A DNA stretch of 64,000 nucleotides from an uncultured Bacteroidales bacterium. Lineage in GTDB: Bacteria; Bacteroidota; Bacteroidia; Bacteroidales; Muribaculaceae. The position numbers and the translations under genes are program-made. The stretch lies in assembly GCA_947644715.1 (NCBI GenBank), contig CANSAP010000006.1, positions 1 through 64,000 of the forward strand, in the 5' to 3' direction. Positions 23,134 through 44,027 of this stretch are shown one piece after another. The notes beneath the pieces are model-generated. The model saw only the letters and a list, made by a program, of their open reading frames with translations. It had not been told where the DNA came from and searched no databases. Every line of letters starts with the position of its first letter. The first letter of the stretch is position 1.

Positions 23134-26100
23134 ATGCTTAGGGTTCTATTTACTTTTATTTGTCTTGCGAGCATTCTGCTGTCATCTAATGCCTCCACCC
23201 TGCCGTCAGGCGCCGCCGCTTCCCACGCCTCTCAAAAGGAGCTGCAAGGGGTCGTGACCGACACTGAGGGGGAGCCGGTGGTGGGTGCCATGATAAAGGT
23301 CAAGAAGTCGTCGCTGGGAGCGGCCACCGACATTGACGGCCATTACAGCCTCGCCGGCAGGCCCCGCGAGGGAGCCGTAATCACGGTGTCAGCCATGGGA
23401 ATGAAGAGCATAGATGTCACCTATCACGGGGAGCCGGTCATGAATTTCACTATGGAGACCGACCCCACTATGCTTCAGGAGGTTACGGTCGTTGCAGAGC
23501 CCAACATCAATGATATTGATGTCAGAAGCCGGTCAGGCGTCGTGCAGACAGTCGACATGAAGCGACTGACCGAAAAGCCGGTCATGGACATGGGGCTTGC
23601 ATTGCAGGGAGCCGTGCCGGGACTGATTGTGACCAACACCGGCGAACTTGGCTCAAAGCCTACAATCCGCATACGCGGCAATCAGTCGCTGCGCGCCGGC
23701 GACTCTGCCAACGAGCCGCTCTATGTGCTTGACGGCAAGGTGATTTCCGCCGACACTTTCCGCTCGCTCAATCCCCAGGATATCCGTGAGATAAAGGTGC
23801 TGAAGGATGCGGCAGCCTGCGCGCTCTATGGCATCAAGGCGGCCAACGGCGTGATTGAGGTCTCCTCTAAGCGAGGAAGCCACTTCGGCGCCGTCGATAT
23901 CAATTACACTCTCAGCATGGGTGTCACGCTGAAAGGGAGGCGGGGTGTCGACGTAATGAAGTCAGCCGAAAAGCTGGAGCTGGAGCGGCTCATGATGAAT
24001 GAAGCCACGCCGGGCTACCGATACAGCGCTGACTATTTCCGTAAGCACTATGCCGGCTCGCCCAACCTCGACGCAATGATTGCCTCGGGAGCCGCAACGC
24101 TCGACTCGCTGCGCGCCATCAATACCGACTGGTTCAACCGCCTGATGCGCACAGCGCTCTATCAGAACCACAATCTTTCGGTGAGAGGGGGTGGCGAACA
24201 GGCCTCCTACTTCATGAGCGCCAACATCTCAACACAGGGGGGACAGATTGAAGGGAACAGCACCCTGCGCGGCACCCTGCGCATGGGGCTTGACCTGGCC
24301 ATCGGCAAAATCGGCGACTTCACGCTCACCATGGATGGAGGATACACCGACAACAAGACCCCCAACGGAAGCAGCTTCTCCCCGGCCTCACTCATCTATA
24401 ATCTGAATCCTTATGAGACTCCGGAGAGCCTCCAACTCTGGTCTTACCCGAACCGCTCGCTCGCCGACCTGCTCTACCAATACAGCGGCAACAGCACCGA
24501 GAAGCGTGCCGGTATCTCCTCAAGCATCCAGCTGCGCCCCCTGCCTGACCTGGATATCTCAGCCGTAGCCGGACTGGACTATCTGCTCTCGGAGTCCACA
24601 CAGTTCACTCCGGCCTCCTCCTATTCCGAACAGCAGAGCGGCTTCAGCGCCGCCGAACTCGGACGCCTTGCCAAGGACAAGAACACGCTGATGAATTTCA
24701 CCTACAACGTGCGCGCCGTCTACAATCACCTCTTCGCTGACCGCCATGACGTGACCCTCAGCCTTAACCATGACTATTATCTGACTAACACCGACAACCT
24801 CGGCATCATCGGATATGGTGTGGGCAACCAGCCCTCGGCCGCCCTCATCAACCAGTCACTCACGGGTGCCCGCAAGCCCGCCGTCTCCGCTCTCAAAGAG
24901 AAAGTTGCGCAACTTGGTGTCGGGGCTGTGGCCGGCTACACCTTCGACCGCACCTATGACCTCTTCGCCACCTATAAGCTTGACGCCTCCTCGCTGCTCC
25001 CCTCTGACAAGCGCTGGAACTCGGCCTGGGCCGTTGGCGCCGGAATCACACCTTCATCCTATCCCTTCCTGGCCGGCAACCGGGTGCTGACGCGCCTCAA
25101 CCTGAAAGCGAGCTACGGCAGCACCGCCTCCCTGGCCGGGGTCAGCGCGGCGCAGACCATAGCCACCTTCGCCTATCTTGAAGAGACCTACGACAACTCA
25201 CGCCTTCTCCAGCTCCTGGCTCTCTATAACCGCGACCTGAAGCCGGAACACACCACCTCCATCGACGCCGGCCTGCACATGGGGCTGTTCAACCTCGTGA
25301 GCCTCGACCTGCAATGGTATCGCCGCGAGACAGCCGACGCACTGCTGGATGTGCCCGTGGCGGCCAGCAACGGCTTCAGCATGATGAAGCGCAACATCGG
25401 CACCCTGCGCAACGACGGCGTGGAGGCGGGCATCTCGCTGAACCTCTCTGACCTGCATCCTGACTGGCAATTCCGGTTCAGCACTACGGCGGCCTACAAC
25501 CGCAACAAAGTGGTCGACCTCTACTACACCGACAAGCTCTACACCAGCGACTACTCTCTGATTCCTGACTTTCAGGTCGGAAAAGCCTATGACATTCTCT
25601 ACGGCCTGCAGCAGACAGGCATAAACTCCGTGACCGGGCTTCCGATTTTCATCGGCAAGGATGGTCGCGAGATAGAGCCGGGCAAGACGAAACTCACCCG
25701 CGACGATTTCATAGTGCTCGGCCACCTGACACCCCCCTTCTCAGGCACCATCAGCCTGGGGGTGAGTTGGCGTGAATTTGAGCTGGATGCCGACTTCTAC
25801 TGGGTCTCCGGAGGTGTGCGGCAATACAACTACACTTACGTGCGTAACCGCGACGATGTCAACTACAACGCCCTGGCCGGCCTGACCGAAACCATGTGGT
25901 TCCATCGAGGCGACGTCGACAAGCTCTACTACTCCCCCTTCTATGCCTCTTCGGCCATTGAGACCCTCTCCTATGCCAACACCTCCAACACCGGGTCGTC
26001 AGACTATCTGCGACTCTCCATGCTCTCGCTTCGCTACCGCCTGCCGCAGACGCTGCTCCGCCACACCGGCAATCTCATCAAGTATGCTTCGGTTGCCCTT

Positions 26101-26214
26101 CAGGCCTCCAATCTCTTCACCATCACCCCTTACAGCGAATCTGACCCTGAGACCGGTAAACTCGGTGCCTCCATCCAGCCGGTAATAACAATGAATCTTA
26201 GCGTAACATTCTGA
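23134..26214 (+). CDS. SusC/RagA family TonB-linked outer membrane protein
   Basis: Carboxypeptidase-like domain LQGVVTDTEGEPVVGAMIKVK, plug NQSLRAGDSANEPLYVLDGKVISADTFRSLNPQDIREIKVLKDAAACALYGIKAANGVIEV, terminal VTF. Confidence 0.97.
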   Translation: MLRVLFTFICLASILLSSNASTLPSGAAASHASQKELQGVVTDTEGEPVVGAMIKVKKSSLGAATDIDGHYSLAGRPREGAVITVSAMGMKSIDVTYHGEPVMNFTMETDPTMLQEVTVVAEPNINDIDVRSRSGVVQTVDMKRLTEKPVMDMGLALQGAVPGLIVTNTGELGSKPTIRIRGNQSLRAGDSANEPLYVLDGKVISADTFRSLNPQDIREIKVLKDAAACALYGIKAANGVIEVSSKRGSHFGAVDINYTLSMGVTLKGRRGVDVMKSAEKLELERLMMNEATPGYRYSADYFRKHYAGSPNLDAMIASGAATLDSLRAINTDWFNRLMRTALYQNHNLSVRGGGEQASYFMSANISTQGGQIEGNSTLRGTLRMGLDLAIGKIGDFTLTMDGGYTDNKTPNGSSFSPASLIYNLNPYETPESLQLWSYPNRSLADLLYQYSGNSTEKRAGISSSIQLRPLPDLDISAVAGLDYLLSESTQFTPASSYSEQQSGFSAAELGRLAKDKNTLMNFTYNVRAVYNHLFADRHDVTLSLNHDYYLTNTDNLGIIGYGVGNQPSAALINQSLTGARKPAVSALKEKVAQLGVGAVAGYTFDRTYDLFATYKLDASSLLPSDKRWNSAWAVGAGITPSSYPFLAGNRVLTRLNLKASYGSTASLAGVSAAQTIATFAYLEETYDNSRLLQLLALYNRDLKPEHTTSIDAGLHMGLFNLVSLDLQWYRRETADALLDVPVAASNGFSMMKRNIGTLRNDGVEAGISLNLSDLHPDWQFRFSTTAAYNRNKVVDLYYTDKLYTSDYSLIPDFQVGKAYDILYGLQQTGINSVTGLPIFIGKDGREIEPGKTKLTRDDFIVLGHLTPPFSGTISLGVSWREFELDADFYWVSGGVRQYNYTYVRNRDDVNYNALAGLTETMWFHRGDVDKLYYSPFYASSAIETLSYANTSNTGSSDYLRLSMLSLRYRLPQTLLRHTGNLIKYASVALQASNLFTITPYSESDPETGKLGASIQPVITMNLSVTF

Positions 26215-27608
26215 TGTCAGCGACCATGAGATATACCCTTTCAGCCACCCTCTTCCTGCTGATGCTCCTGTCGGGCTGCTCGCTCGACATCCCCTACGAG
26301 AACCAATTCTCTGACCCGGATGCAATAACCACTCCCGAAACCGGGCGCGAGCTGCTGGCTTACGCCTATAATTCCCTCCCCAATCCGGAGTTTGACCTCG
26401 CGCTGCTTGCCGATGATTTCGAGCCTACTTACTGGGCTCCGCGCAATTCATCGCTCAACAATGAATACACCTGGCAGCCGCAGGCGCTGATTGACCTGAG
26501 TGCCTCGCTATGGACTGAGTATTACGAGGTTATAGCCTCACTGAACGCTCTGCTTGAGCGCACCCCTGACATAAAGGTGAGCTCGGAGGCTGACCGCACG
26601 GCGCTGAACAATCTCACCGCTGAGGCCTACACGCTGAAAGCCTTCTGCTATTTCCGTCTGTTGCAGCTTTTTGCCTCCGGCCCTGACACGCCCGATGCTG
26701 ACGGAATCATTCTCAAGGATAAAGTGGCTATGGAGAACCTTCCCCGCCGCCCGATTAAAGACTGCATCGCGGAGATTCGCTCGTTGCTCACCCGCGCCCG
26801 GGAGCTTGGCAACAGCGGCGCCAACAAAGCTTGGATTACCTCCGACGCCACTCTGCTGCTCTCTGCGCAGGTGGAGCTGTATGCCGGCAACTGCGCAGAG
26901 GCTGCCCACCTCGCCCGTGAGTTGCTCGACAAATATGGGTTCGAGGTCTTCGCTCCCCAGGCCTATGATGCGCTTTGGAACAGCACCACGAGCGCCGAGC
27001 AAATCTTCATCTTCAACAGTCCCGACCGCACGGGCAGCTTCTATCAGGAGATTGTCTATGACACAAATTCCGGCGACTATTTCTCAGTAGCCCCGGCCAT
27101 AGCCGCCGCTTACGGGCCGACCGACTGCCGCACCCCCTGGAGCATATGCGAAGTGACCACCTCGGCTCTCGGCACTCTGCCCTTCATCGGAAAATACAAT
27201 CGGCTGCGCCGCGAAAAGCGGGAGATTACGTTCGTCAATAAGATGCGTCTCTCCAACGCTCTGTTCACGGCGGCTGAAGCGCTGGTCCGGGAGGGACAGG
27301 GGGCAGAAGCCCGCTCGATCATGAATGAATATCTGTCGCGCCGCGGCGCCGAGCTGCTGGCCGACGATTTGACCGGCGACCCACTGATGCTCGCAATCCT
27401 GCACCAGAAGCAGCTCGAATTTCTCGGTGAGGGGGAACGCTTCTTCGACCTGAAGCGCTATCGCGCCACTCTGCTTAACACCCCTTCCACCCGCATTCCC
27501 CCCGCCGGAGACTACCGATGGCTCCTCCCGATTCCTAAGGATGAATATCTCTATAATGAGGCAGCCAATCAAAATCCCGAGTGGCCGAAATCCTCTTTTA
27601 ATGATTGA
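26214..27608 (+). CDS. RagB/SusD family nutrient-binding lipoprotein
   Basis: Lipobox LLSGCS; SusD-like AEAYTLKAFCYFRLLQLFA and RREKREITFVNKMRL..EALVREGQGAEARSIMNEYLSRRG..LAILHQKQLEFLGEGERFFDLKRY. Confidence 0.96.
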   Translation: MSATMRYTLSATLFLLMLLSGCSLDIPYENQFSDPDAITTPETGRELLAYAYNSLPNPEFDLALLADDFEPTYWAPRNSSLNNEYTWQPQALIDLSASLWTEYYEVIASLNALLERTPDIKVSSEADRTALNNLTAEAYTLKAFCYFRLLQLFASGPDTPDADGIILKDKVAMENLPRRPIKDCIAEIRSLLTRARELGNSGANKAWITSDATLLLSAQVELYAGNCAEAAHLARELLDKYGFEVFAPQAYDALWNSTTSAEQIFIFNSPDRTGSFYQEIVYDTNSGDYFSVAPAIAAAYGPTDCRTPWSICEVTTSALGTLPFIGKYNRLRREKREITFVNKMRLSNALFTAAEALVREGQGAEARSIMNEYLSRRGAELLADDLTGDPLMLAILHQKQLEFLGEGERFFDLKRYRATLLNTPSTRIPPAGDYRWLLPIPKDEYLYNEAANQNPEWPKSSFND

Positions 27609-27647
27609 GATACTGCTTGATTTATCTTTCAAAATAATTAATACACT

Positions 27648-28934
27648 ATGAAAAAAGTTTTCCACTATCTGGCCCTGGCAGTCTGCCTGCTCCCGGCCAT
27701 GGTATCCTGTTCGGACGAGAACAATGAACCCCAAAGCGGGGTCACCAACCACATCTATCTGAGCCTGCCCGGCGGCACGTCGACCCTCGCTGAAGGGAGC
27801 GACGAGGCTCTGACTGTTGATGTGACTCTCAGCTATGCGCCCTCAGCTGACCTCACTCTGAAATTTGAAGCGGAGAATGACCTTGACGGTGTGCTGACCC
27901 TCACTGACAACACAGTCAGCATCACTGCCGGAAGCACCACCGGCTCCTTCACCATCTCCGCCCGGAATGCCACCGGTCTCACCGCTCCCGCCTCCTTCTC
28001 TTTCAAGGTGGCTGAGGTTACACCTGCCGGCACTCCGGTTGACATCAAGGAAAATGTGACCGTCACTGTCAATCCGGCATCCGGCGCCACCCCTCTCACT
28101 CCCGAACTGAAAGCGCTCGTCGAAACCTGGAAAACGAAATATGGCATCGACATCACCCCCTGGCTGGGCAACATCAAGCTCTCCGGCTCCTTGCAGTTCC
28201 CCGGCAGTGGCACCCGCGATGCGTTCGTCTCACCCTCCACACTGACCCTCTCCGGCTCCACTCTGTTCAATCTCAGCACAGAGTCAACCGAGGAGATGCC
28301 TGTGCTCAACATGGATGAGAACCCCATGGGTCTGACTGACTATCTCTACCGCTCTTTCCTGCGCCTCACTGTGGATGACCGCGAATACTTCGCTCTGGAG
28401 GATGAAGGCTCCGGGCTGGAACTCATGGAGCTGCTCAACTGGAACGCAACATCGCAGGAAACCTTCGGGGTGACTCTGCCCGGCCTGCGCATAACCTCTA
28501 TCGCCAATGGCAAAGCCAATGTGGAATTTGTCAGCGAAGGGGAGCGACTCATCTATGGCACCAACGGTCAGCCCATCTACAATCCGGAGTATGACATGAA
28601 TCTCACCTATAACTATGCCTCCAGCTGGATTCCGTTCAACTACACCTACTCAGCTTGGAGCCGTCAGCTCGACATGATTGCCAACGGTGTTCCCTCTGCT
28701 CTGGAACTGCTCACCTATGGAGTGAGCGCCGCTCCGGCCACTTATCTCGGCATCTCCGATGTGCTGGAGGATGCCTGGGAGGTTGACGAAGAGGAGGATG
28801 GTGTGGCCAATCTCTATGTGCGTCCCTCCGGTGTGATTGACTTCAACGCCGGCACCATGACCTTCACCTTCCCCTTCGACCATGCTGACCAGTATGGCTA
28901 CTCCCGCGTGACTGTTGTCTATTCCTTAAAGTAA
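27648..28934 (+). CDS. Hypothetical surface lipoprotein with Calx-beta-like N-terminal repeat
   Basis: Lipobox AMVSCSDENN; LYLTFKFE-type beta repeats ADLTLKFEAENDLDGVLTLTDNTVSITAGSTTGSFTISARNATG. Confidence 0.7.
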   Translation: MKKVFHYLALAVCLLPAMVSCSDENNEPQSGVTNHIYLSLPGGTSTLAEGSDEALTVDVTLSYAPSADLTLKFEAENDLDGVLTLTDNTVSITAGSTTGSFTISARNATGLTAPASFSFKVAEVTPAGTPVDIKENVTVTVNPASGATPLTPELKALVETWKTKYGIDITPWLGNIKLSGSLQFPGSGTRDAFVSPSTLTLSGSTLFNLSTESTEEMPVLNMDENPMGLTDYLYRSFLRLTVDDREYFALEDEGSGLELMELLNWNATSQETFGVTLPGLRITSIANGKANVEFVSEGERLIYGTNGQPIYNPEYDMNLTYNYASSWIPFNYTYSAWSRQLDMIANGVPSALELLTYGVSAAPATYLGISDVLEDAWEVDEEEDGVANLYVRPSGVIDFNAGTMTFTFPFDHADQYGYSRVTVVYSLK

Positions 28935-34192: not shown

Positions 34193-35436
34193 TTACCGAC
34201 TGAACACCTTATAATGTTGGGTGCCGACTGTGACAATATATAATCCTGAAGGAAGCTGCACTGTGCCGGATGGTCCACGGTACACCGTTTTGCCTCCCAT
34301 ATCAGTAATTGACACTTTATCATCGCCGGTTATCAGAAGTGCACCCTTCAAGCTGCTCACCTTAAATCCGGAACAGGTTATTCTTTCCACGCCATCAGTA
34401 TCCAGCGCCTTAATTACTGCAAAATTCTTCCAAAGCGGAGCCTCCTTATAGACTTCCACCGATTCTGACGGAACCTCAAGCTCACAGCCGGCAGCACACT
34501 TTGCCGCCCAGTCTTCAAACAATATAGCAGGAACAGGTTCATGCAGCCGGATACTCGACAATGCCTCGCAACCGTCAAACACATCGTCCAATTCATCAAT
34601 TTGCCCGGCTGCAATAGTAACCTTCTTCAAGTTTTTGCAAAACTGATAGCTCCCTTTGTTTGTTTGATTTGCACAAGCGCGGCAGGAATGCTCACTTCCT
34701 CAATAGTGGAGTAATCAAACGCCGAATAGCCAATACTCGTCAGCGCTTCCCAATTAGGATATATCCGCACTCCGGAACCATAAAACGCGTATTGACCGAT
34801 TGACGTTACATTCTCCACGCCTGACAGTTCCATTCCCGGTGCAACCTGAGTGCCACATCTGAAAAACGTCTGCGACAAGATAGCAGAACAGCCAAGGCTG
34901 AAGTGCAATTTTTTCATAGAGGAGCAGGACTGAAACGCATTTGGGCCTACCCATTCCACACAATCCGGCAACGTGAGTTCCTCTAACGCACTACAACCGT
35001 GGAACGCTCCTATATCAATCTTTGTTAAAGACTCAGGAAGAGTGACTGATGTCAGCGCGTCACAATTATAAAACGCGCCCACACCGATTTCACTGACAGC
35101 ATAGACGGATGATTCCGGAGAATTGTCGGGACGTACCGATGCCGGAACAGTCACGTCTCCGCGGTATGAATTACCCTTCCAAGAGGTATAATCATACACC
35201 ATTAAATCCCGCTCCGGCCCAACATATGCCGGGGTATCTTTCTTCTCTGTGTTTCCACACACAACGGCTACTGTCTTAGACTCCTCGGAGAGGACTGAAT
35301 AATAAATCCCGTCCACCTCGAAATCATAAGCCTGCCCAACGACGCTACCGTTAGATGTGCTACTCAAGCCAAGCAGGATGAACGTTAGTAATAGAATTTT
35401 CTTCATAGTGCATCGTTTAGAGTTTGTCTGCCACAA
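34193..35436 (-). pseudogene. BspA-like leucine-rich repeat surface protein split by a frameshift
   Basis: ORF 34627-35436 carries signal peptide and LRR_5 repeats (IGVGAFYNCDALTSVTLPESLTKIDIGAFHGCSALEELTLP); ORF 34193-34630 continues LKKVTIAAGQ... to a sorting-like C-terminus. Frames join in the next frame at (CAAA)3. Confidence 0.8.
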
Positions 35437-35668: not shown

Positions 35669-35699
35669 TTTGGCGGTTAAAAAATTTGTGTTACCTTTG
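35669..35699 (+). promoter_or_regulatory. Bacteroidetes-type promoter driving the riboswitch transcript
   Basis: -33 TTTG (35669-35672), exactly 19-nt spacer, -7 TACCTTTG (35692-35699). Confidence 0.75.
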
Positions 35700-35960
35700 C
35701 ACCCGAGCAAGGCTCCGAAGCTGTTCGCTATGTGCGGCGGCCGAGGATTAAAAGGGAAAGCCGTGAAATCCGGCTACAGTACCCGCTGCTGTAAGTCTCA
35801 ATTCATCGCACTATGCGCGATGGGTTTCATTCTTCGCCTCGCCTGTGCCTGAGCGCACAGGAGGTCACTGAGTTCCAACCACGGAATTTGGGAAGGCTTG
35901 CGAAGTGATTGAGAGGAGACGAGTCAGAAGACCTGCCATGCCGCGACATAGCCGGAATAC
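35700..35960 (+). promoter_or_regulatory. Cobalamin (AdoCbl-type) riboswitch
   Basis: aaagggaaagccgtgaaatccggctacagtacccgctgctgtaag core plus canonical B12 box AGTCAGAAGACCTGCC at 35922-35937. Boundaries approximate. Confidence 0.95.
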
Positions 35961-36048
35961 TGCGCTTCGGGAATATAGGCTCGGTAATCCTCAATACTCG
36001 TCACTCTCCACCCCACTCCGGCGGGGCGGTTGTGGTGCTACGGAGCAT

Positions 36049-36115
36049 AGGCTTTTCCTGTTATGTCGGTTAACCTGATTTATTCCAATTAACCTATTAA
36101 TAACAGTAAAAGCCT
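36049..36115 (+). promoter_or_regulatory. Inverted repeat between riboswitch and start codon (candidate expression platform)
   Basis: aggcttttcctgtta (36049-36063) and taacagtaaaagcct (36101-36115), 14 of 15 complementary, 8 nt before the ATG. Confidence 0.65.
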
Positions 36116-36123
36116 ATTAATCA

Positions 36124-39100
36124 ATGTCTACAAAGCTACTAAAGCTAACCGCGCTGCTCGCGCTGTTCCTTTGGTTTCCGGCAAGGGCGGATATTCCAAC
36201 CTACGACATGCCGAAAAGGGACATGAAAGATGCGGTGCAGACTGTGGAGGAGCAACTGCTCTTCTACGACCATGGAGGTGCTACGGGTAACATCCAAAGC
36301 CTCTACTACCAGACTCTCTGTGTCTTCAAAAGCGCCAATGAGGGGGATGCCCTCTCAATCACGTTCAACAGTGTCGACCTCAACGGCCCAGTGCTCTACA
36401 TCTATGATGGCGAAATCAGCGCTTACAATAAGGTGACCGAGGGTTATATCGGAACCGTAACCGGCACCGAGACAGCCTCTTTCGAGGCAGCCTCCGGCAC
36501 ACTGTCTGTGCTCTACTATTCCACCGGCTATGCCAACAGCGGTGCCGGTTGGGAAGCCCTGCTTGAGTCTGTCCCCTCCAAGGATATGGAATGGGTGTCG
36601 GCCGCTGCCAACACGGCGTTCTCCACGAATATATATCCCGGCGCCACGACGGTACCGCTCATGTGCGTTGACATGCTCACCGACGGCGGAGGCAATCCCC
36701 TTAATCTCAACAATATAACTTTCGCACTTGAGGGCGACGGCATGGCAGCTTTCAAGAATCTGCGCTGCATGGTGAACCGTGACCAGAACAGTCCCGCCGG
36801 TGGCGACATCTTCGGCGAGGCATTCGATGCAGCAGCCCCAACCATGACCTTCTCCGGCGCTCACGCGCTGAAATCAAAGCACAATTACATCTGGCTTGTG
36901 GCCGACATTGATGTGGCGGCTTCCGCCGGCACATCGGTTTCACCCGTATGCTCTTCTCTGAAAGTAGCTGACGCGGAACGACTGTCAACTCCCCTGACCG
37001 GCTCTGCGGCTGAAATCAAAAACATGCTCTTCATGCCCACGGGCCCGGCCACCTATAAGATTGGCGACACTCCCCTGCTCTTCTATGATGATGGAGGACC
37101 GGAAGGCAACATAACTCTCAATTTCGAGGGCGAAGTGACCTTTGAGCCGGAACATGACGGAAAGAAGGTGCGTGTAGTCTTTGAATCGCTCGACCTGTTC
37201 AACACCTCAACCATCGGCAAAAACGATGTACTGAAGATTTATAACGGCCGTGCGGCCGACAATACGGCGCTGCTCGCCTCGCTGCTCAATGACCCTCTCA
37301 CGATTCATTCCACAGCGGTCGACGGCTCGCTGACCGTAACCTTCCAAAGCCTGACCGGCGTTAATCCGAAGAGCGGTTGGGTGGCTCGTGTCGAGGAGTT
37401 CACTCCGCAGCCCATGACCGTCACCGCCCTGACAGCCACCGGCCTGTCAGGCATCAATACGGCTGCCGGCTCTGCTGCCAAAGCGCTCAGTTTTGAAGCA
37501 ACGACCGTCGGCACCGAACCGGCTGCCACGCTCAACGCCGTGACCCTCAGCCTGGCCGGAAGCACCGCTCCTATTGCATCGGTGAGCCTGACTGACCTCA
37601 ATGGCAATCTCCTCGGGGAGGCTGACGTTACATCTGAGTCCGTCACGCTGACTCTCTCGGCTCCCGTGGCTCTCGGCGAACGCGACAACATCTTCAACGT
37701 CAATATCACTCCGGCAACATCCGCCCTGAGTGGACAGACAATCGCGGCTGCCTTGCAAAATGTTCAACTCAGTTCCGGCAGCATGACCCCCTCAGCCTCC
37801 ACTCCGGCTGCTGTGGAAATCAATAATGTCTGCCAACTGACCCGCGACTATCATGAGCACACAATCTTCGGAGAGTGGACGCTCACCCATGAACCTCACT
37901 CCAACTCTTACCTGGGCTACGACGGCACTGCCGGCGAACGCAAGGTGACCCTGCATCCCGGCACCGAGGGTATGTTCATTGAACTGGAGTTCAATTCCTT
38001 CTACGTAAACTGGCCCACCTGGGGCAACGCACCCTCCTTCAAGGTTTACTCAGGCTCGGAGGCCACCGGCGAACCAATCTGGACCATGACTCAGGCCAAT
38101 GCCAAGACCGGTCCCGAGACCCCGCTCCGCTCATCCTCTGTGGATGGAGCCATGACAATCGTCTTCAATCCCAATGGCAACAACGGAGCCATGGGCCAGG
38201 GTTTCAATGCCGCCGTGCGCGAATACATCCCCGCCCCGATGCAGCTCTCGCAGGTTGAGGTTAGTCAGGCAAGCACCGACCCGGTGCAGAGCGGCGACAC
38301 GAATGTGGCTGTCCTGCGCATCGCCACAACCACTACCGGCGACCTTAACCCCCTCCCCTTCGAGTCGCTCTCCATCGACCTCAAGGATGCCAAGGGAAGC
38401 GTAAAGAGCGCCAAACTCTATTCCACAGGTCGCTCCGATCAGTTCACCACCGGCAATCTGATTGCCACTGCCGATGTGCAGGCCGAGGCCTCTTCCGTAA
38501 CTCTCACCCCGACGGCCACCACCCGCCTTGCGGAAAAAACCTGCTACTATTGGCTCGCATTCGATATGAACGAGCAGATTGAGCCTGGGCATGACATTGA
38601 TGCAGCCGTGACTGAAATGAAGGTCAACGGGGCTGCCGTCTCAGGCATTATCACCCCCGACCCCGAGGGCGCCCGTCCCTCTGTGGCCGTCTATCTCTTC
38701 GACGGCGATGACCGTGTGGTGGATGTCAAGGGGACTCTGCTCTTCTACGACGATGGAGGCGCCACAGGCAAATACACCACTACCCACAAAGGCAAAGTCA
38801 CTTTCCGTCCTGCCGAGGGTGAGATTATCCGCTTTGCCTTCAAGCAGTTCTATACCAATATCAGCGACTACTTCTACGTATACGACGGAGCTGCAGCCTC
38901 CGGTGCACTGCGAGCCAAGCTCTCAAGCTCCAAGACTGACCTGGCTGACATTTTCTCCACCTCTGAGGATGGCTGTCTCTCCGTAGACTTCAATCCCACG
39001 AAGAATAACATCAACGACGGCTGGTATATCGAAGTCTCTTCCGTACGCCCCGAACCGCTTCACATCGCCACAGCCGAATTGACGGCTGTCGAGGATGCCC

Positions 39101-42100
39101 GCCTGCTGCGCGGCGCCGAGAAGCTGCTTGTGGCCCGTCTGCGTCTGGAGGTTGAGGGCAACCGCGGCCCGGTTCCCTTCACTGAGTTCAGCTTCGACAC
39201 TGCCGGCTCCACAGCCGGACTGCTTGCCGGACTCTCGCTCACCAGCTCCGAGCAGCTCGAGTCTTATAATGATGTCAACGAGATAGCCTCCGCTGCCACC
39301 GGCGCTCTTTCCTCTCCCGACTTCGCTATCTCCACCCCCGGCACCTACTATCTCTGGCTGCGTGCCGACATTGCAGCCGACGCGCCCGCTGCAGGCTCTC
39401 TGAAGGTGGCTCTCGCTTCCGTAGCCAATGCCGACGGCTCTCTTTGGAACACCCCCGGCGAACAGCTCGAACTGGCTCTCACCCCCGGCATGAACGGCAC
39501 CTATACCATCGGCGCTTCCCCGGAGGCTGACTACGCTACCATCCAGGCTGCCGCCGACGCCCTGAAGCAGGGTGTGGATGGCCCCGTGACTTTCCTCATC
39601 GAGAGTGGCGACTACAAGGAGCTTGTCTCCATTCCCGAAATACCCGGTGCCGGCGAGGCTCACCCCGTGACCTTCCGCAGCGCCTCCGGCAACCGCGCGG
39701 ACGTGACTCTGCACTATGATTCCTACACCGCCTCCTACGGCCAGCCGGAATATGGTGTGCTCACTGTGAAGGGTGCCGACTGGCTTACGCTGGAAGCACT
39801 CACGTTGACCAGCTCCGCCAATGCCTTCCCGATGATTGTGAAGCTCCAGGATGCCTCACGTCACTTCACTATGCGCGACTGCCACGTGTATTCGCCTCAC
39901 CGCTCCGGAACCTCCGACCCCACTCTGGTGGAATGCTACGTAAGCTCCGAGGCTGTGCCTGACCGCAACAATGACTATGCGAGCTTCGAGAACTGTCTGT
40001 TCGAGGGTGGATACATGGGTGTGCAACTGGGTGGCACCTCAATTGTGAACCCTGTGGCGCTCCCTGTTGAGAAGGGTGGTTCAATCACCGACTGCACCTT
40101 CATCGGCCAATACTCAAAGGGTATCTATCTGAGCGCTGAGTCAGGCGCCCGCCTGCTCCGCAACTACTTCGAGAGTCAGCCGAACAGCTATTCCTCCTAC
40201 TATGCCATGGACCTGCTCAACGGCTATGATGACCTGCTCGTGGAGGGCAACATAATCAATCATGCCTATCCGGTAAGCTCCTCATCCGGCATCTATGTGC
40301 GCAATCTCTATGGCAGCGCCGAAAAGGCTCCGGCCATCATCAACAATGAAATCGTAATCAGCAACGCCACCAGCGCCGTGCGCGGCATCACGATTCAATA
40401 TCCGGTGCCCTATCTCCGGTTGGCTCACAACAGTGTGAGCATCTCCGGCACAGCCTCCTCTTCCGCCTGCCTCTACGTCAACGACACTATGAGCGAGGCT
40501 GTCGTGGCCAATAATATCTTCGACAACCGCGCCGCAGGCTACGCCGTGCGTGTGCAGAAGGCCGAATATATGCCGGCAGCTTTCACCACCAATATGATGC
40601 GCTCCTCGGCTGAGGCGCCCCTGAACTATCTTGCCGGCGACATTGCCGACCTCGAAGCCTGGGCAACCGCAGCCTCTGACCCCACTGCGTTCACCGCCGA
40701 TGTGGAATACCTGGCCGAAGACATTCTCGAGCCGATGGATTTCGCTCCGTTGACCAAGGGTACCCCGCTGCCGTATGTAACTGCTGACATCTCCGGCACT
40801 CCGCGCGATGCCGCCGCTCCCACCGTAGGTGCATACGAGGCTTCTGCTCTGTCTGTCACTCCGGCTCCCGCCGAAGGTTACCCGCTGATTGACTGCGTGA
40901 CTCATGAGTCTGCCCGCTTGACATTGGCTGCAAATTGCCATGCCGCAGCCCGCGTGCTTGTGCTTGAAGCTTCCGCCGAAGCTCCCGAGGCTGAAGCGGT
41001 CGAGGCCTCAGAACTGACTCTCAGCCTGCGCAAGAACCGTCCCGCATCTCTCATCCTGCCTGACCTCGCCCCCAACACTGAGTATAAGGCTTGGCTTGTG
41101 ATTACATCCCTGCGTGGCGAAAGTGGCGAGCTCTTTGCAGCGCCCGAGTTTGAGACCACTTATGCGCCGACTACTGTCTCAACCTTCGAGAATGTGCAGA
41201 TGATTGGCGACGACGCTCCCGGCTCTTTCCTCGATGGAACCGCACGTTTTGACGGGTTCCTGGTGGAAGAGGAGGAGAATCTTCCCGTGGCCGGTTCCTC
41301 CCGGGTTGCTGTCATGGAGGACACTGAAGCTACCGTGACTCTGACCAATGCCTCCAACCTGACTCTCGACGGTTTCTGGCTCCGCAACTCTGAGGAGGTT
41401 GAGCTGACGGCTCTCTCTGAGGAGGGTCAGGAATTGACCTCAAAGACTCTGCCCGCAAACGGCTGGCGTTACGTCAACCTGCGCGACATGGGCGAGATGG
41501 CTGCTCTGACCCTCTATACTGAAGGGGCTGCCGCTATTGATGATTTCAGCGGCCAACCCGCACAGCTCTCTGCCCGGGTGCAAGGTGCCGAAACCGGCAT
41601 CGCTCAGGGTGACACCTTCTCTCTGACGGCTATGGCCGAAGGTGGTGTGCAGCCCTTCACTTACAGCTGGACCGACAAGGCCGGCTCTCCGCTCGGCTCC
41701 GAGGCTCTGCTTTCCCGCACGGCTGAGGTGACTGACTTATATACTGTGAAGGTTACTGATGCCTGGGGTGCCGAAGCTACCGCCTCCGCCCGCCTGAATG
41801 TTTCAGGCGACATGGTTATCGCCACTTTCGACGACCTCTATCTTGAGCCTGATTCCAAGTGGCATGGCGACCTCAACGACCCGGACTACACGTCAGGCAC
41901 GTTCCTCTCCGGTTCCTTCGAGTTCAGCAATTACTATATGGCTGACTGGAATTCCTGGAGCTGGTTCGGCTACGCCAACCTCGAGGGTACCAATTACTCA
42001 AGCTACAATGATGACATGGTCTGCGCCGCAGGCAGCGGTCATGATTCAGCCGGCTACGGTGTGGCCTTCATGGGTGATTATTATGGCCCGACGCTGATGT

Positions 42101-42879
42101 CGATGACTAACTCCGACGCACCTCAGACTATCCCCGGCCTGTGGCTCAACAACACTGAGTGGGTACGCCTCTCTGTGCTGGAAGGTGACGGCATGAGCGA
42201 CAAGTTTGAGCAGGGTGACTACTGCGCCGTGCGCATCAGCGGCGAGAAGGAGGATGGCTCTTACACTGACCCGCTGGAGATTCGCCTGGCTGACTATACT
42301 TCTGAAGATGAAGGTGACTGGTATGTGCTCGACACCTGGCAGTGGTTCCCGCTTGAATCCCTGGGTGCCGTGAAGAAACTCCGCTGGGAGTTCACCTCCA
42401 CTAAGCGCAATGCCTACGGTGTGACCACCCCCTCCTATGTCTGCATCGATGACTTGGGTGACACCTGCTCCGTAGAGGAACTGGCCGCACTCAGCATCTG
42501 CGAGGATGACCGCTCCATCGACCTGACCGAATACTTCGACTTCGACCCCGAGGAGGGCAACATCTCCTATGAACTTCTCTCGGGCGATGCAACCATAGTT
42601 GAGGGTAAGGCCGTTGTGACTGCTCCCGCTTTGGAATCCACCACTCTGGTAGTGCGCGCCGCGCAGCGTGGCCGTCAGCAATGGATTTCTCTGCCTGTGG
42701 ATGTCACTGTCTCCTCCGTTGACCGTGTGAATGCTTCCGACATAATCGGTTACAGCATCTACAACACTCAGGGCATCCTGCTCCACACCGGAAGCGAAAT
42801 GCCCCGCCTTGACTCCGGCATCTACATCGTGGTGCGCCACACAGCCTCCGGCTCCGTGAGCACCGTAGAACGCCGATAA
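36124..42879 (+). CDS. Giant secreted multi-domain protein: CUB-like repeats, BNR-associated-like modules, parallel beta-helix, DUF4465-like domain, C-terminal sorting-like domain
   Basis: Four modules of type LLFYDDGGATGKYTTTHKGKVTFRP...DYFYVYDGA; beta-helix region from GASPEADYATIQAAADALKQG; IATFDDLYLEPDSKWHGDLNDPDYTSGTFLSGSFEFSNYY...GLWLNNTEWVRLSVLEGDG...; C-terminus YSIYNTQGILLHTGSEMPRLDSGIYIVVRH. Confidence 0.88.
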   Translation: MSTKLLKLTALLALFLWFPARADIPTYDMPKRDMKDAVQTVEEQLLFYDHGGATGNIQSLYYQTLCVFKSANEGDALSITFNSVDLNGPVLYIYDGEISAYNKVTEGYIGTVTGTETASFEAASGTLSVLYYSTGYANSGAGWEALLESVPSKDMEWVSAAANTAFSTNIYPGATTVPLMCVDMLTDGGGNPLNLNNITFALEGDGMAAFKNLRCMVNRDQNSPAGGDIFGEAFDAAAPTMTFSGAHALKSKHNYIWLVADIDVAASAGTSVSPVCSSLKVADAERLSTPLTGSAAEIKNMLFMPTGPATYKIGDTPLLFYDDGGPEGNITLNFEGEVTFEPEHDGKKVRVVFESLDLFNTSTIGKNDVLKIYNGRAADNTALLASLLNDPLTIHSTAVDGSLTVTFQSLTGVNPKSGWVARVEEFTPQPMTVTALTATGLSGINTAAGSAAKALSFEATTVGTEPAATLNAVTLSLAGSTAPIASVSLTDLNGNLLGEADVTSESVTLTLSAPVALGERDNIFNVNITPATSALSGQTIAAALQNVQLSSGSMTPSASTPAAVEINNVCQLTRDYHEHTIFGEWTLTHEPHSNSYLGYDGTAGERKVTLHPGTEGMFIELEFNSFYVNWPTWGNAPSFKVYSGSEATGEPIWTMTQANAKTGPETPLRSSSVDGAMTIVFNPNGNNGAMGQGFNAAVREYIPAPMQLSQVEVSQASTDPVQSGDTNVAVLRIATTTTGDLNPLPFESLSIDLKDAKGSVKSAKLYSTGRSDQFTTGNLIATADVQAEASSVTLTPTATTRLAEKTCYYWLAFDMNEQIEPGHDIDAAVTEMKVNGAAVSGIITPDPEGARPSVAVYLFDGDDRVVDVKGTLLFYDDGGATGKYTTTHKGKVTFRPAEGEIIRFAFKQFYTNISDYFYVYDGAAASGALRAKLSSSKTDLADIFSTSEDGCLSVDFNPTKNNINDGWYIEVSSVRPEPLHIATAELTAVEDARLLRGAEKLLVARLRLEVEGNRGPVPFTEFSFDTAGSTAGLLAGLSLTSSEQLESYNDVNEIASAATGALSSPDFAISTPGTYYLWLRADIAADAPAAGSLKVALASVANADGSLWNTPGEQLELALTPGMNGTYTIGASPEADYATIQAAADALKQGVDGPVTFLIESGDYKELVSIPEIPGAGEAHPVTFRSASGNRADVTLHYDSYTASYGQPEYGVLTVKGADWLTLEALTLTSSANAFPMIVKLQDASRHFTMRDCHVYSPHRSGTSDPTLVECYVSSEAVPDRNNDYASFENCLFEGGYMGVQLGGTSIVNPVALPVEKGGSITDCTFIGQYSKGIYLSAESGARLLRNYFESQPNSYSSYYAMDLLNGYDDLLVEGNIINHAYPVSSSSGIYVRNLYGSAEKAPAIINNEIVISNATSAVRGITIQYPVPYLRLAHNSVSISGTASSSACLYVNDTMSEAVVANNIFDNRAAGYAVRVQKAEYMPAAFTTNMMRSSAEAPLNYLAGDIADLEAWATAASDPTAFTADVEYLAEDILEPMDFAPLTKGTPLPYVTADISGTPRDAAAPTVGAYEASALSVTPAPAEGYPLIDCVTHESARLTLAANCHAAARVLVLEASAEAPEAEAVEASELTLSLRKNRPASLILPDLAPNTEYKAWLVITSLRGESGELFAAPEFETTYAPTTVSTFENVQMIGDDAPGSFLDGTARFDGFLVEEEENLPVAGSSRVAVMEDTEATVTLTNASNLTLDGFWLRNSEEVELTALSEEGQELTSKTLPANGWRYVNLRDMGEMAALTLYTEGAAAIDDFSGQPAQLSARVQGAETGIAQGDTFSLTAMAEGGVQPFTYSWTDKAGSPLGSEALLSRTAEVTDLYTVKVTDAWGAEATASARLNVSGDMVIATFDDLYLEPDSKWHGDLNDPDYTSGTFLSGSFEFSNYYMADWNSWSWFGYANLEGTNYSSYNDDMVCAAGSGHDSAGYGVAFMGDYYGPTLMSMTNSDAPQTIPGLWLNNTEWVRLSVLEGDGMSDKFEQGDYCAVRISGEKEDGSYTDPLEIRLADYTSEDEGDWYVLDTWQWFPLESLGAVKKLRWEFTSTKRNAYGVTTPSYVCIDDLGDTCSVEELAALSICEDDRSIDLTEYFDFDPEEGNISYELLSGDATIVEGKAVVTAPALESTTLVVRAAQRGRQQWISLPVDVTVSSVDRVNASDIIGYSIYNTQGILLHTGSEMPRLDSGIYIVVRHTASGSVSTVERR

Positions 42880-42984: not shown

Positions 42985-43068
42985 TATTATTTCTTGGGGG
43001 TCAGGTATTATTTCTTGGGGGTCAGGTATTATTTCTTGGGGGTCAGGTATTATTTCTTGGGGGTCAGG
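42985..43068. repeat. Four perfect tandem copies of a 21-bp unit at the 3' end of the Sel1-repeat gene
   Basis: tattatttcttgggggtcagg x4; the last copy encodes the gene's terminal LTPKK-stop. Confidence 0.97.
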
Positions 43069-44027
43069 CGCACGATTGCTTCATGGGCATTCGTTATGCC
43101 TGCTTCTACGGCCTGCGCAAGCCAATCGGCCGCTGTGCGTTGCTGCTCATCCTGCGTGGTTTCATCGGCAAATGCGTCAGGGAACTGCTGGAGGGTCTCT
43201 CCGACTATGTAGGCAGCCGAGGGGTCACCCTGTAATGCCGCGTGCCAGAAGAGGTGCATCGCATGGTCGTAGTCGTAAGGCACACCCCAACCCTGCGCGT
43301 AGCTCTGCGCAAGAAGCGCAAGTGCATATGGGTCATCAGCCTTGGCCGCCTGCATGAAAAGTGGCGATGAAATCGGGAAAATACGGTCGTTGAAGTATTC
43401 CAATCCCACCTCTCTCGCCTCCTCAGCCGAAAGCTGCTCCGCCTCGGGAGCGACCAGCAGCCACAGCCTCTCGGCAGCCGGACGAAAACCTTTGGCGGCA
43501 GCTCCGCGCAGCAAAGAGGCTGCAAGCACAGAGTCTTTTGGCACTTCGGGGTTATCCAAAAGCAATTCACCAAGCGAGGTCATAGCAGCCGGCACCCCGG
43601 CCTCTGCGCCACGCTCATACCAATAGAGAGCCTTCTTCATGTCGCGCTTAACTCCGCCGGAGCCGGTGGAGAGCAGCCACCCGAGATTATTGAATGCCTT
43701 GGGGTCCGGCTCCGGGGCGGTGGCGGCACGCTGAATCCACATCAGCATTGTGTCGGGAGCGAGGTCGAAATATCTGTAACCTAACAGGTTGCAAGCCGGA
43801 GCATAACCTTTTTCCGCCGACGCACGCAGCAGGGAGTCTGCCCGCACTGAGTCAGGAACAACCCCGCCGCGTCCCGTCTCCAGAAGATAGGACAACCGAT
43901 ACATGGCCACACTGTCACCCTCGCGCACCTGCTCTTCAAGCTGCTGCACCTGCGGGGCTGCTTCCATTCCTGCTATGCCGGCCAACGCTGCGGGCAGCAG
44001 AGCCATTCCAAATAATATTCGCTTCAT
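43050..44027 (-). CDS. Sel1-like/TPR repeat protein with signal peptide
   Basis: AMYRLSYLLETGRGG, NLLGYRYF, FNNLGWLLSTGSGGVKRDMKKALYWYERGAEAGVPAAMTSLGELLL, ALLAQSYAQGWGVPYDYDHAMHLFWHAALQG. Confidence 0.9.
   Translation of the reverse strand: MKRILFGMALLPAALAGIAGMEAAPQVQQLEEQVREGDSVAMYRLSYLLETGRGGVVPDSVRADSLLRASAEKGYAPACNLLGYRYFDLAPDTMLMWIQRAATAPEPDPKAFNNLGWLLSTGSGGVKRDMKKALYWYERGAEAGVPAAMTSLGELLLDNPEVPKDSVLAASLLRGAAAKGFRPAAERLWLLVAPEAEQLSAEEAREVGLEYFNDRIFPISSPLFMQAAKADDPYALALLAQSYAQGWGVPYDYDHAMHLFWHAALQGDPSAAYIVGETLQQFPDAFADETTQDEQQRTAADWLAQAVEAGITNAHEAIVRLTPKK

Follow-up and report, generated by a model that had tools for sequence, protein, structure and literature searches.

A cobalamin riboswitch precedes the gene for a very large secreted DUF4465 protein in an uncultured Muribaculaceae bacterium: a conserved giant variant of the BtuJ family

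The window, by which we mean the entire 64,000-nt stretch of DNA analyzed here (positions 1 to 64,000 of contig CANSAP010000006.1, assembly GCA_947644715.1, from an uncultured, gut-type Bacteroidales bacterium of the Muribaculaceae), carries a cobalamin riboswitch followed by a gene for a protein of 2251 amino acids, hereafter the giant (Table 1). This is the sole gene behind the riboswitch, as the gene upstream (34627-35436, minus strand) is divergently oriented and the gene downstream (43050-44027, minus strand) is convergent. The covariance model RF00174 matched well above its cut-off and over its complete length (model positions 1-189, E 1.5e-14 for the window), and both the exact B12 box and the riboswitch core at about 35751-35795 can be read from the sequence. 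The promoter reads TTTG-N19-TACCTTTG, and its -7 motif, TAnnTTTG, stands at the start of the aptamer in 28 of 31 compared riboswitches, where 1.9 occurrences are expected from shuffles. A sigma-70 promoter scan yielded only a chance match on the minus strand. For the expression platform, neither a strong intrinsic terminator nor a sequestered start gave a clear or consistent signal. The preliminary description of this DNA, made from the sequence alone, had listed the B12 box, the core, the promoter with 19-nt spacing and a single gene under the riboswitch, with a convergent gene downstream, and all of these proved correct. It had also stated that btuB is missing from the window. This holds as well: the TonB receptor at 23134-26214 was rejected as a BtuB candidate, as it is of the SusC type and paired with a SusD-type partner. 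Receptor, partner and a DUF4929 protein stand in a row (23134-28934, plus strand) and make up an ordinary nutrient-uptake set.

Table 1 Features of the giant gene and its upstream region (window coordinates)
Feature	Position	Strand	Basis
Bacteroidetes-type promoter TTTG-N19-TAnnTTTG	35669..35699	+	Sequence; motif recurrence in compared riboswitches
Cobalamin riboswitch aptamer RF00174	35693..35954	+	67.6 bits, cut-off 31.5
B12 box AGTCAGAAGACCTGCC	35922..35937	+	Sequence; aligned to RF00174 consensus
169-nt leader linking aptamer and start codon (presumed expression platform)	35955..36123	+	Sequence
Giant DUF4465 protein, 2251 aa	36124..42879	+	ORF; Pfam; 24 family orthologues
Signal peptide, no lipobox cysteine near N-terminus	36124..36189	+	Read from sequence
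CUB + BNR_assoc_N-type unit 1, residues 30-304	36211..37035	+	Profile matches
CUB + BNR_assoc_N-type unit 2, residues 300-572	37021..37839	+	Model pLDDT 94.4; CUB folds in PDB; local HMMs
CUB + BNR_assoc_N-type unit 3, residues 598-851	37915..38676	+	Local HMMs; PF14873 at 710-836
CUB + BNR_assoc_N-type unit 4, residues ~855-1125	38686..39498	+	Profile + local HMMs; BNR half weak
Parallel beta-helix, residues ~1130-1600	39511..40923	+	PF13229 (right-handed beta-helix) at 1249-1419
Ig/SprB-like spacer, residues ~1820-1895	41581..41808	+	Weak PF13573; all-beta model
DUF4465 (BtuJ-type) domain, residues 1897-2111	41812..42456	+	PF14717; PDB 9hmu, 9fct, 9i2l; predicted fold
T9SS-type C-terminal sorting-like tail, residues ~2195-2251	42706..42876	+	Below threshold here; recognisable via orthologues

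The 24 family orthologues of the giant are 27-38% identical to it over the aligned part. Most of the protein precedes the DUF4465 domain. The four CUB-like modules and the parallel beta-helix named in the preliminary description were recovered, the modules by profile and fold searches, with the refinement that a BNR_assoc_N-type domain follows each CUB half; the last of these BNR halves is too weak to be called by local HMMs in the window giant. Among the orthologues, Pfam detected CUB (PF00431) in 10/22 and the beta-helix in 13/22. A profile built from residues 300-572 as aligned from 21 orthologues found four copies of the unit in the whole window genome, all of them within the giant. When a sample of other Bacteroidales was searched, seven proteins of 1773-3027 amino acids besides the window giant matched the unit over its full length with more than 150 bits, and six of these seven also carry DUF4465.

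Because no cysteine occurs before residue 66, the lipoprotein signal of the BtuJ1/BtuJ2 subtype is lacking at the N-terminus. The proposed sorting-like C-terminus stood only in part: it is recognizable mainly through the orthologues (TIGR04183 in 12/22, PF18962 in 10/22), while the tail of the window giant itself stays below the thresholds of the Pfam and NCBIfam models, and the NCBIfam search of the giant returned no family. A type IX secretion system (T9SS) is represented in the window genome by SprA/Sov (SprA_N, E 4e-185). According to the accessible part of PMC12751083, 229 of 824 DUF4465 proteins carry the T9SS C-terminal signal IPR026444 and 88 of 824 IPR013424, and the window giant probably belongs to this class of DUF4465 proteins with a C-terminal secretion signal. 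Where a T9SS tail would be expected, the BtuH-like protein of genome G109 (L064:3696-4886) has a C-terminal Dockerin_1 match instead, and so has one giant of the set; a dockerin-like C-terminus is seen in the giant of L043 (2076-8255).

PF14717 (DUF4465) matched residues 1941-2111 with 149.4 bits (cut-off 25, E 1.8e-43), in support of the DUF4465-like domain noted in the preliminary description, and the complete domain matches the solved DUF4465 proteins. A predicted model of residues 1690-2251 (pLDDT 89.9) has the augmented jelly-roll fold of the BtuJ family. Its best PDB match is 9hmu, a DUF4465-B12 complex (target-normalised TM 0.86), followed by 4jqr and BtuJ1 (0.79-0.82; 0.79-0.80 for BtuJ1, 9fct), with a lower value of 0.55-0.56 for BtuJ2 (9i2l). 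Recent work (PMC13398666, PMC12751083) reports DUF4465 to be a family of B12 binders, named BtuJ; within the portions of these reports available to us, B12 binding is described for eight divergent DUF4465 proteins (PMC13398666), and BtuJ1 and BtuJ2 are described as tight B12 binders that are enriched on vesicles and deliver B12 through them (PMC12751083). The BtuJ1 pocket residues are also named in the available portion of the latter. In our alignment W78, Y97, T242 and Y245 are kept as W1942, Y1961, T2102 and Y2105, whereas Y146 is replaced by W2013 in the DE-helix and N241 by T2101. A tryptophan occupies the place of BtuJ1 Y146 in the solved DUF4465 protein 4jqr as well, for which we found no B12 complex. 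The T-P-x-Y motif of the HI-loop is present as TTPSY, and its tyrosine, Y2105, is nearly invariant. The domain is thus a member of the BtuJ family and, judged by alignment and model, a predicted cobalamin binder. The relation to BtuH suggested in the preliminary description is wrong: BtuH is a different domain, present in the genome as a separate riboswitch-controlled protein, and the BtuH structures 7biz and 8blw are not among the PDB matches of the giant at E<=1.

The combination of riboswitch and giant recurs in relatives. DUF4465 is present in 126 of 198 genomes of the family, and 24 further giants were taken from them, selected because the DUF4465 match lay in a long frame; RF00174 lies directly upstream and on the same strand in 22 of the 24. 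All 29 assessable giants, i.e., the window giant, 23 from the same family and five from other Bacteroidales families, have a cobalamin riboswitch ahead of them, 27 immediately upstream and two as members of a riboswitch operon. Not all of them count as independent: L094 and L095 are closely related, and elsewhere the set contains several pairs from one genus. Two giants cut by contig ends (L060, L092) and a DUF4465 frame of 496 amino acids (L062) were left out of this count. The riboswitch is directly upstream of the giant in L093, L094, L095 and L097 from other families. L064 and L058 cover one and the same giant gene; here the gene order behind the riboswitch is BtuB, BtuG (DUF5074), BtuH-like protein and, in fourth place, the giant. 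In L096, from another family, a BtuH-like gene stands between riboswitch and giant. In L093, btuB, btuG, two btuH-like genes and a DUF4465 gene lie just upstream of the giant, which has its own riboswitch. Both the RF00174 search and the survey of homologues for upstream riboswitches had been proposed in the preliminary description, and both came out clearly positive; neither of the two refuting outcomes that it had attached to them occurred. Since every assessable giant sits under a cobalamin riboswitch, we reject a chance or isolated riboswitch as the reading of the element in the window.

Three observations on single relatives are added here. A relative of 1745 amino acids (L098, G022:C8, 5342-10576, minus strand) has the riboswitch, CUB/BNR units, beta-helix and a sorting-like tail and lacks DUF4465; because it keeps riboswitch and arm without this domain, the arm may have a B12-related role of its own. 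A version of 1333 amino acids (L047, G150:C8, 1024-5022, minus strand) lacks units 1-3 and retains the last unit, the beta-helix and DUF4465, owing either to a real deletion or to assembly collapse of repeats. For one giant, the Bacteroidetes sRNA family BTncRNA_FopS was matched a short distance upstream of the riboswitch (L057:8248-8315, minus strand).

The window genome contains three RF00174 riboswitches, located upstream of a BtuB-like receptor, a BtuH-like protein and the giant. The BtuB-like TonB receptor on contig C49 matches TIGR01779 with E 8.2e-33, which is below the equivalog cut-off, and the BtuH-like protein (383 amino acids, L005) matches 8blw and 7biz in the PDB. A second, small DUF4465 protein of 264 amino acids (L063:7044-7838, plus strand) has a lipoprotein-like N-terminus and no RF00174 within its 16-kb locus; a DUF5074 match is found on C13. 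Directly downstream of the BtuB-like receptor gene a secreted protein of 414 amino acids is encoded (L004:22-1266, minus strand), without significant match in Pfam or the PDB. The assembly contains methylmalonyl-CoA mutase and neither CbiC nor the MetH activation domain; as it is 97.85% complete, the lack of any one item falls short of proof. This pattern is in keeping with an organism that uses B12 and does not make it.

In our view it is very likely that the window giant is a riboswitch-controlled, secreted, long-armed surface cobalamin binder that works with BtuB; the large surface cobalamin binder of the preliminary description is therewith the best-supported reading, given an RF00174 match over threshold and a riboswitch kept in all assessable giants. 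Computation established the riboswitch, the DUF4465 assignment with its predicted fold, the conserved pocket, the domain architecture and, in relatives, co-regulation and operon linkage; from these results we infer repression by B12, B12 binding, T9SS export and hand-over to BtuB. Speaking against this reading are the two pocket substitutions relative to BtuJ1, the sub-threshold sorting tail, the loss of DUF4465 in L098 and the failure to find a clear terminator or sequestered start. When cobamides are scarce, the riboswitch would permit expression of the giant gene. The protein would then cross the inner membrane by means of its signal peptide and the outer membrane through the type IX secretion system, to be displayed on the cell or released around it. 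There the C-terminal jelly-roll may capture cobalamin in the aromatic pocket known from BtuJ1 and BtuJ2, and the vitamin could then move on, perhaps by way of the BtuH-like protein, to the BtuB-like receptor, whose gene lies elsewhere in the genome under a riboswitch of its own. For the beta-helix and the four CUB+BNR units we conjecture the role of a long arm that would position the binder or hold it in place, with glycans or glycoproteins as the most likely sites of attachment. Glycans are a reasonable first guess for the arm ligand, as BNR_assoc_N-type domains occur in sialidases.

Less probable, though a serious candidate, is a released or vesicle-borne scavenger resembling BtuJ1 and BtuJ2, which would load B12 for later delivery or deny it to competitors. 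The signal peptide without lipobox and the T9SS-type tail fit such a protein, as does the vesicle enrichment of BtuJ proteins cited above; location is not decidable from sequence, however, and a released scavenger is a variant of the surface binder rather than a contradiction to it. About 70% of the giant consists of CUB, BNR_assoc_N-type and beta-helix regions, and L098 retains arm and riboswitch after all, such that the protein might primarily serve adhesion to glycans or matrix, induced when the cell is starved of B12, with DUF4465 secondary or its B12 binding lost. This we consider unlikely, because DUF4465 is found in 22/22 aligned orthologues (though these were collected via a DUF4465 match), the HI-loop tyrosine is nearly invariant and L047 exhibits the reverse loss. 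Binding of a cobamide-carrier protein as an alternative to cobalamin binding finds little support.

The arm also invites comparison with cubilin, since the unit profile has cubilin CUB5-8 in the intrinsic-factor complex (3kq4) as its best PDB match and the unit occurs in the window genome exclusively in the giant, four times. CUB units binding a host B12 carrier (intrinsic factor or haptocorrin), from which DUF4465 strips the vitamin, would make the protein a bacterial cubilin-like receptor, and taking B12 from intrinsic factor is a known activity of BtuG (PMC6143338). Yet cubilin is matched as CUB domains in general would be (independent E 0.02 for the best domain), PCPE-1 and neuropilins rank first when the predicted model of unit 2 is compared with solved structures, and CUB-only or BNR-only matches are frequent in other large Bacteroidales surface proteins. 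The resemblance is intriguing but generic, and we regard such a receptor as most improbable. It is likewise very unlikely that the arm itself recognizes some B12-bearing partner, be it a surface partner or a carrier glycoprotein of host or microbial origin, for presentation to DUF4465; if it did, the giant would constitute a distinct outer-surface or extracellular B12 machine and a bacterial functional analogue of cubilin.

In the accessible portions of the DUF4465 literature (PMC13398666, PMC12751083) we found no description of CUB/BNR/beta-helix giants or of their systematic riboswitch control, and literature searches combining riboswitch with Muribaculaceae or DUF4465 with CUB returned nothing relevant. 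The novelty lies in the architecture: the giants are a conserved variant, of T9SS type and under riboswitch control, within the known DUF4465/BtuJ family of B12 binders. In Bacteroidales, B12 capture thus probably extends beyond the small lipoproteins studied in Bacteroides thetaiotaomicron to very large secreted proteins that form a widespread class. Through the riboswitch, a giant that otherwise resembles an adhesin is linked to a single vitamin, which makes its function directly testable and raises the question of what a B12 binder gains from a conserved arm about 1600 residues long.

Among known systems, cubilin has the generic CUB fold in common with the arm, and sialidases of Bacteroidales share the BNR_assoc_N family (PF14873) with the giant, which lacks their sialidase domain. 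BtuH is likewise a B12-binding surface protein under riboswitch control, but its domain is different; it is encoded separately in the window genome and beside giants in L064, L093 and L096. The closest likeness is to BtuJ1 and BtuJ2 (DUF4465, IPR027828) of Bacteroides thetaiotaomicron, with which the giant shares the domain family, the predicted augmented jelly-roll, most pocket residues, control by a cobalamin riboswitch and export, the latter being predicted for the giant. BtuJ1 and BtuJ2 are small lipoproteins (solved chains of 256 and 305 residues) encoded in btu operons, whereas the giant is a non-lipoprotein of far greater length that adds a four-unit arm and a beta-helix and usually stands alone behind its own riboswitch.
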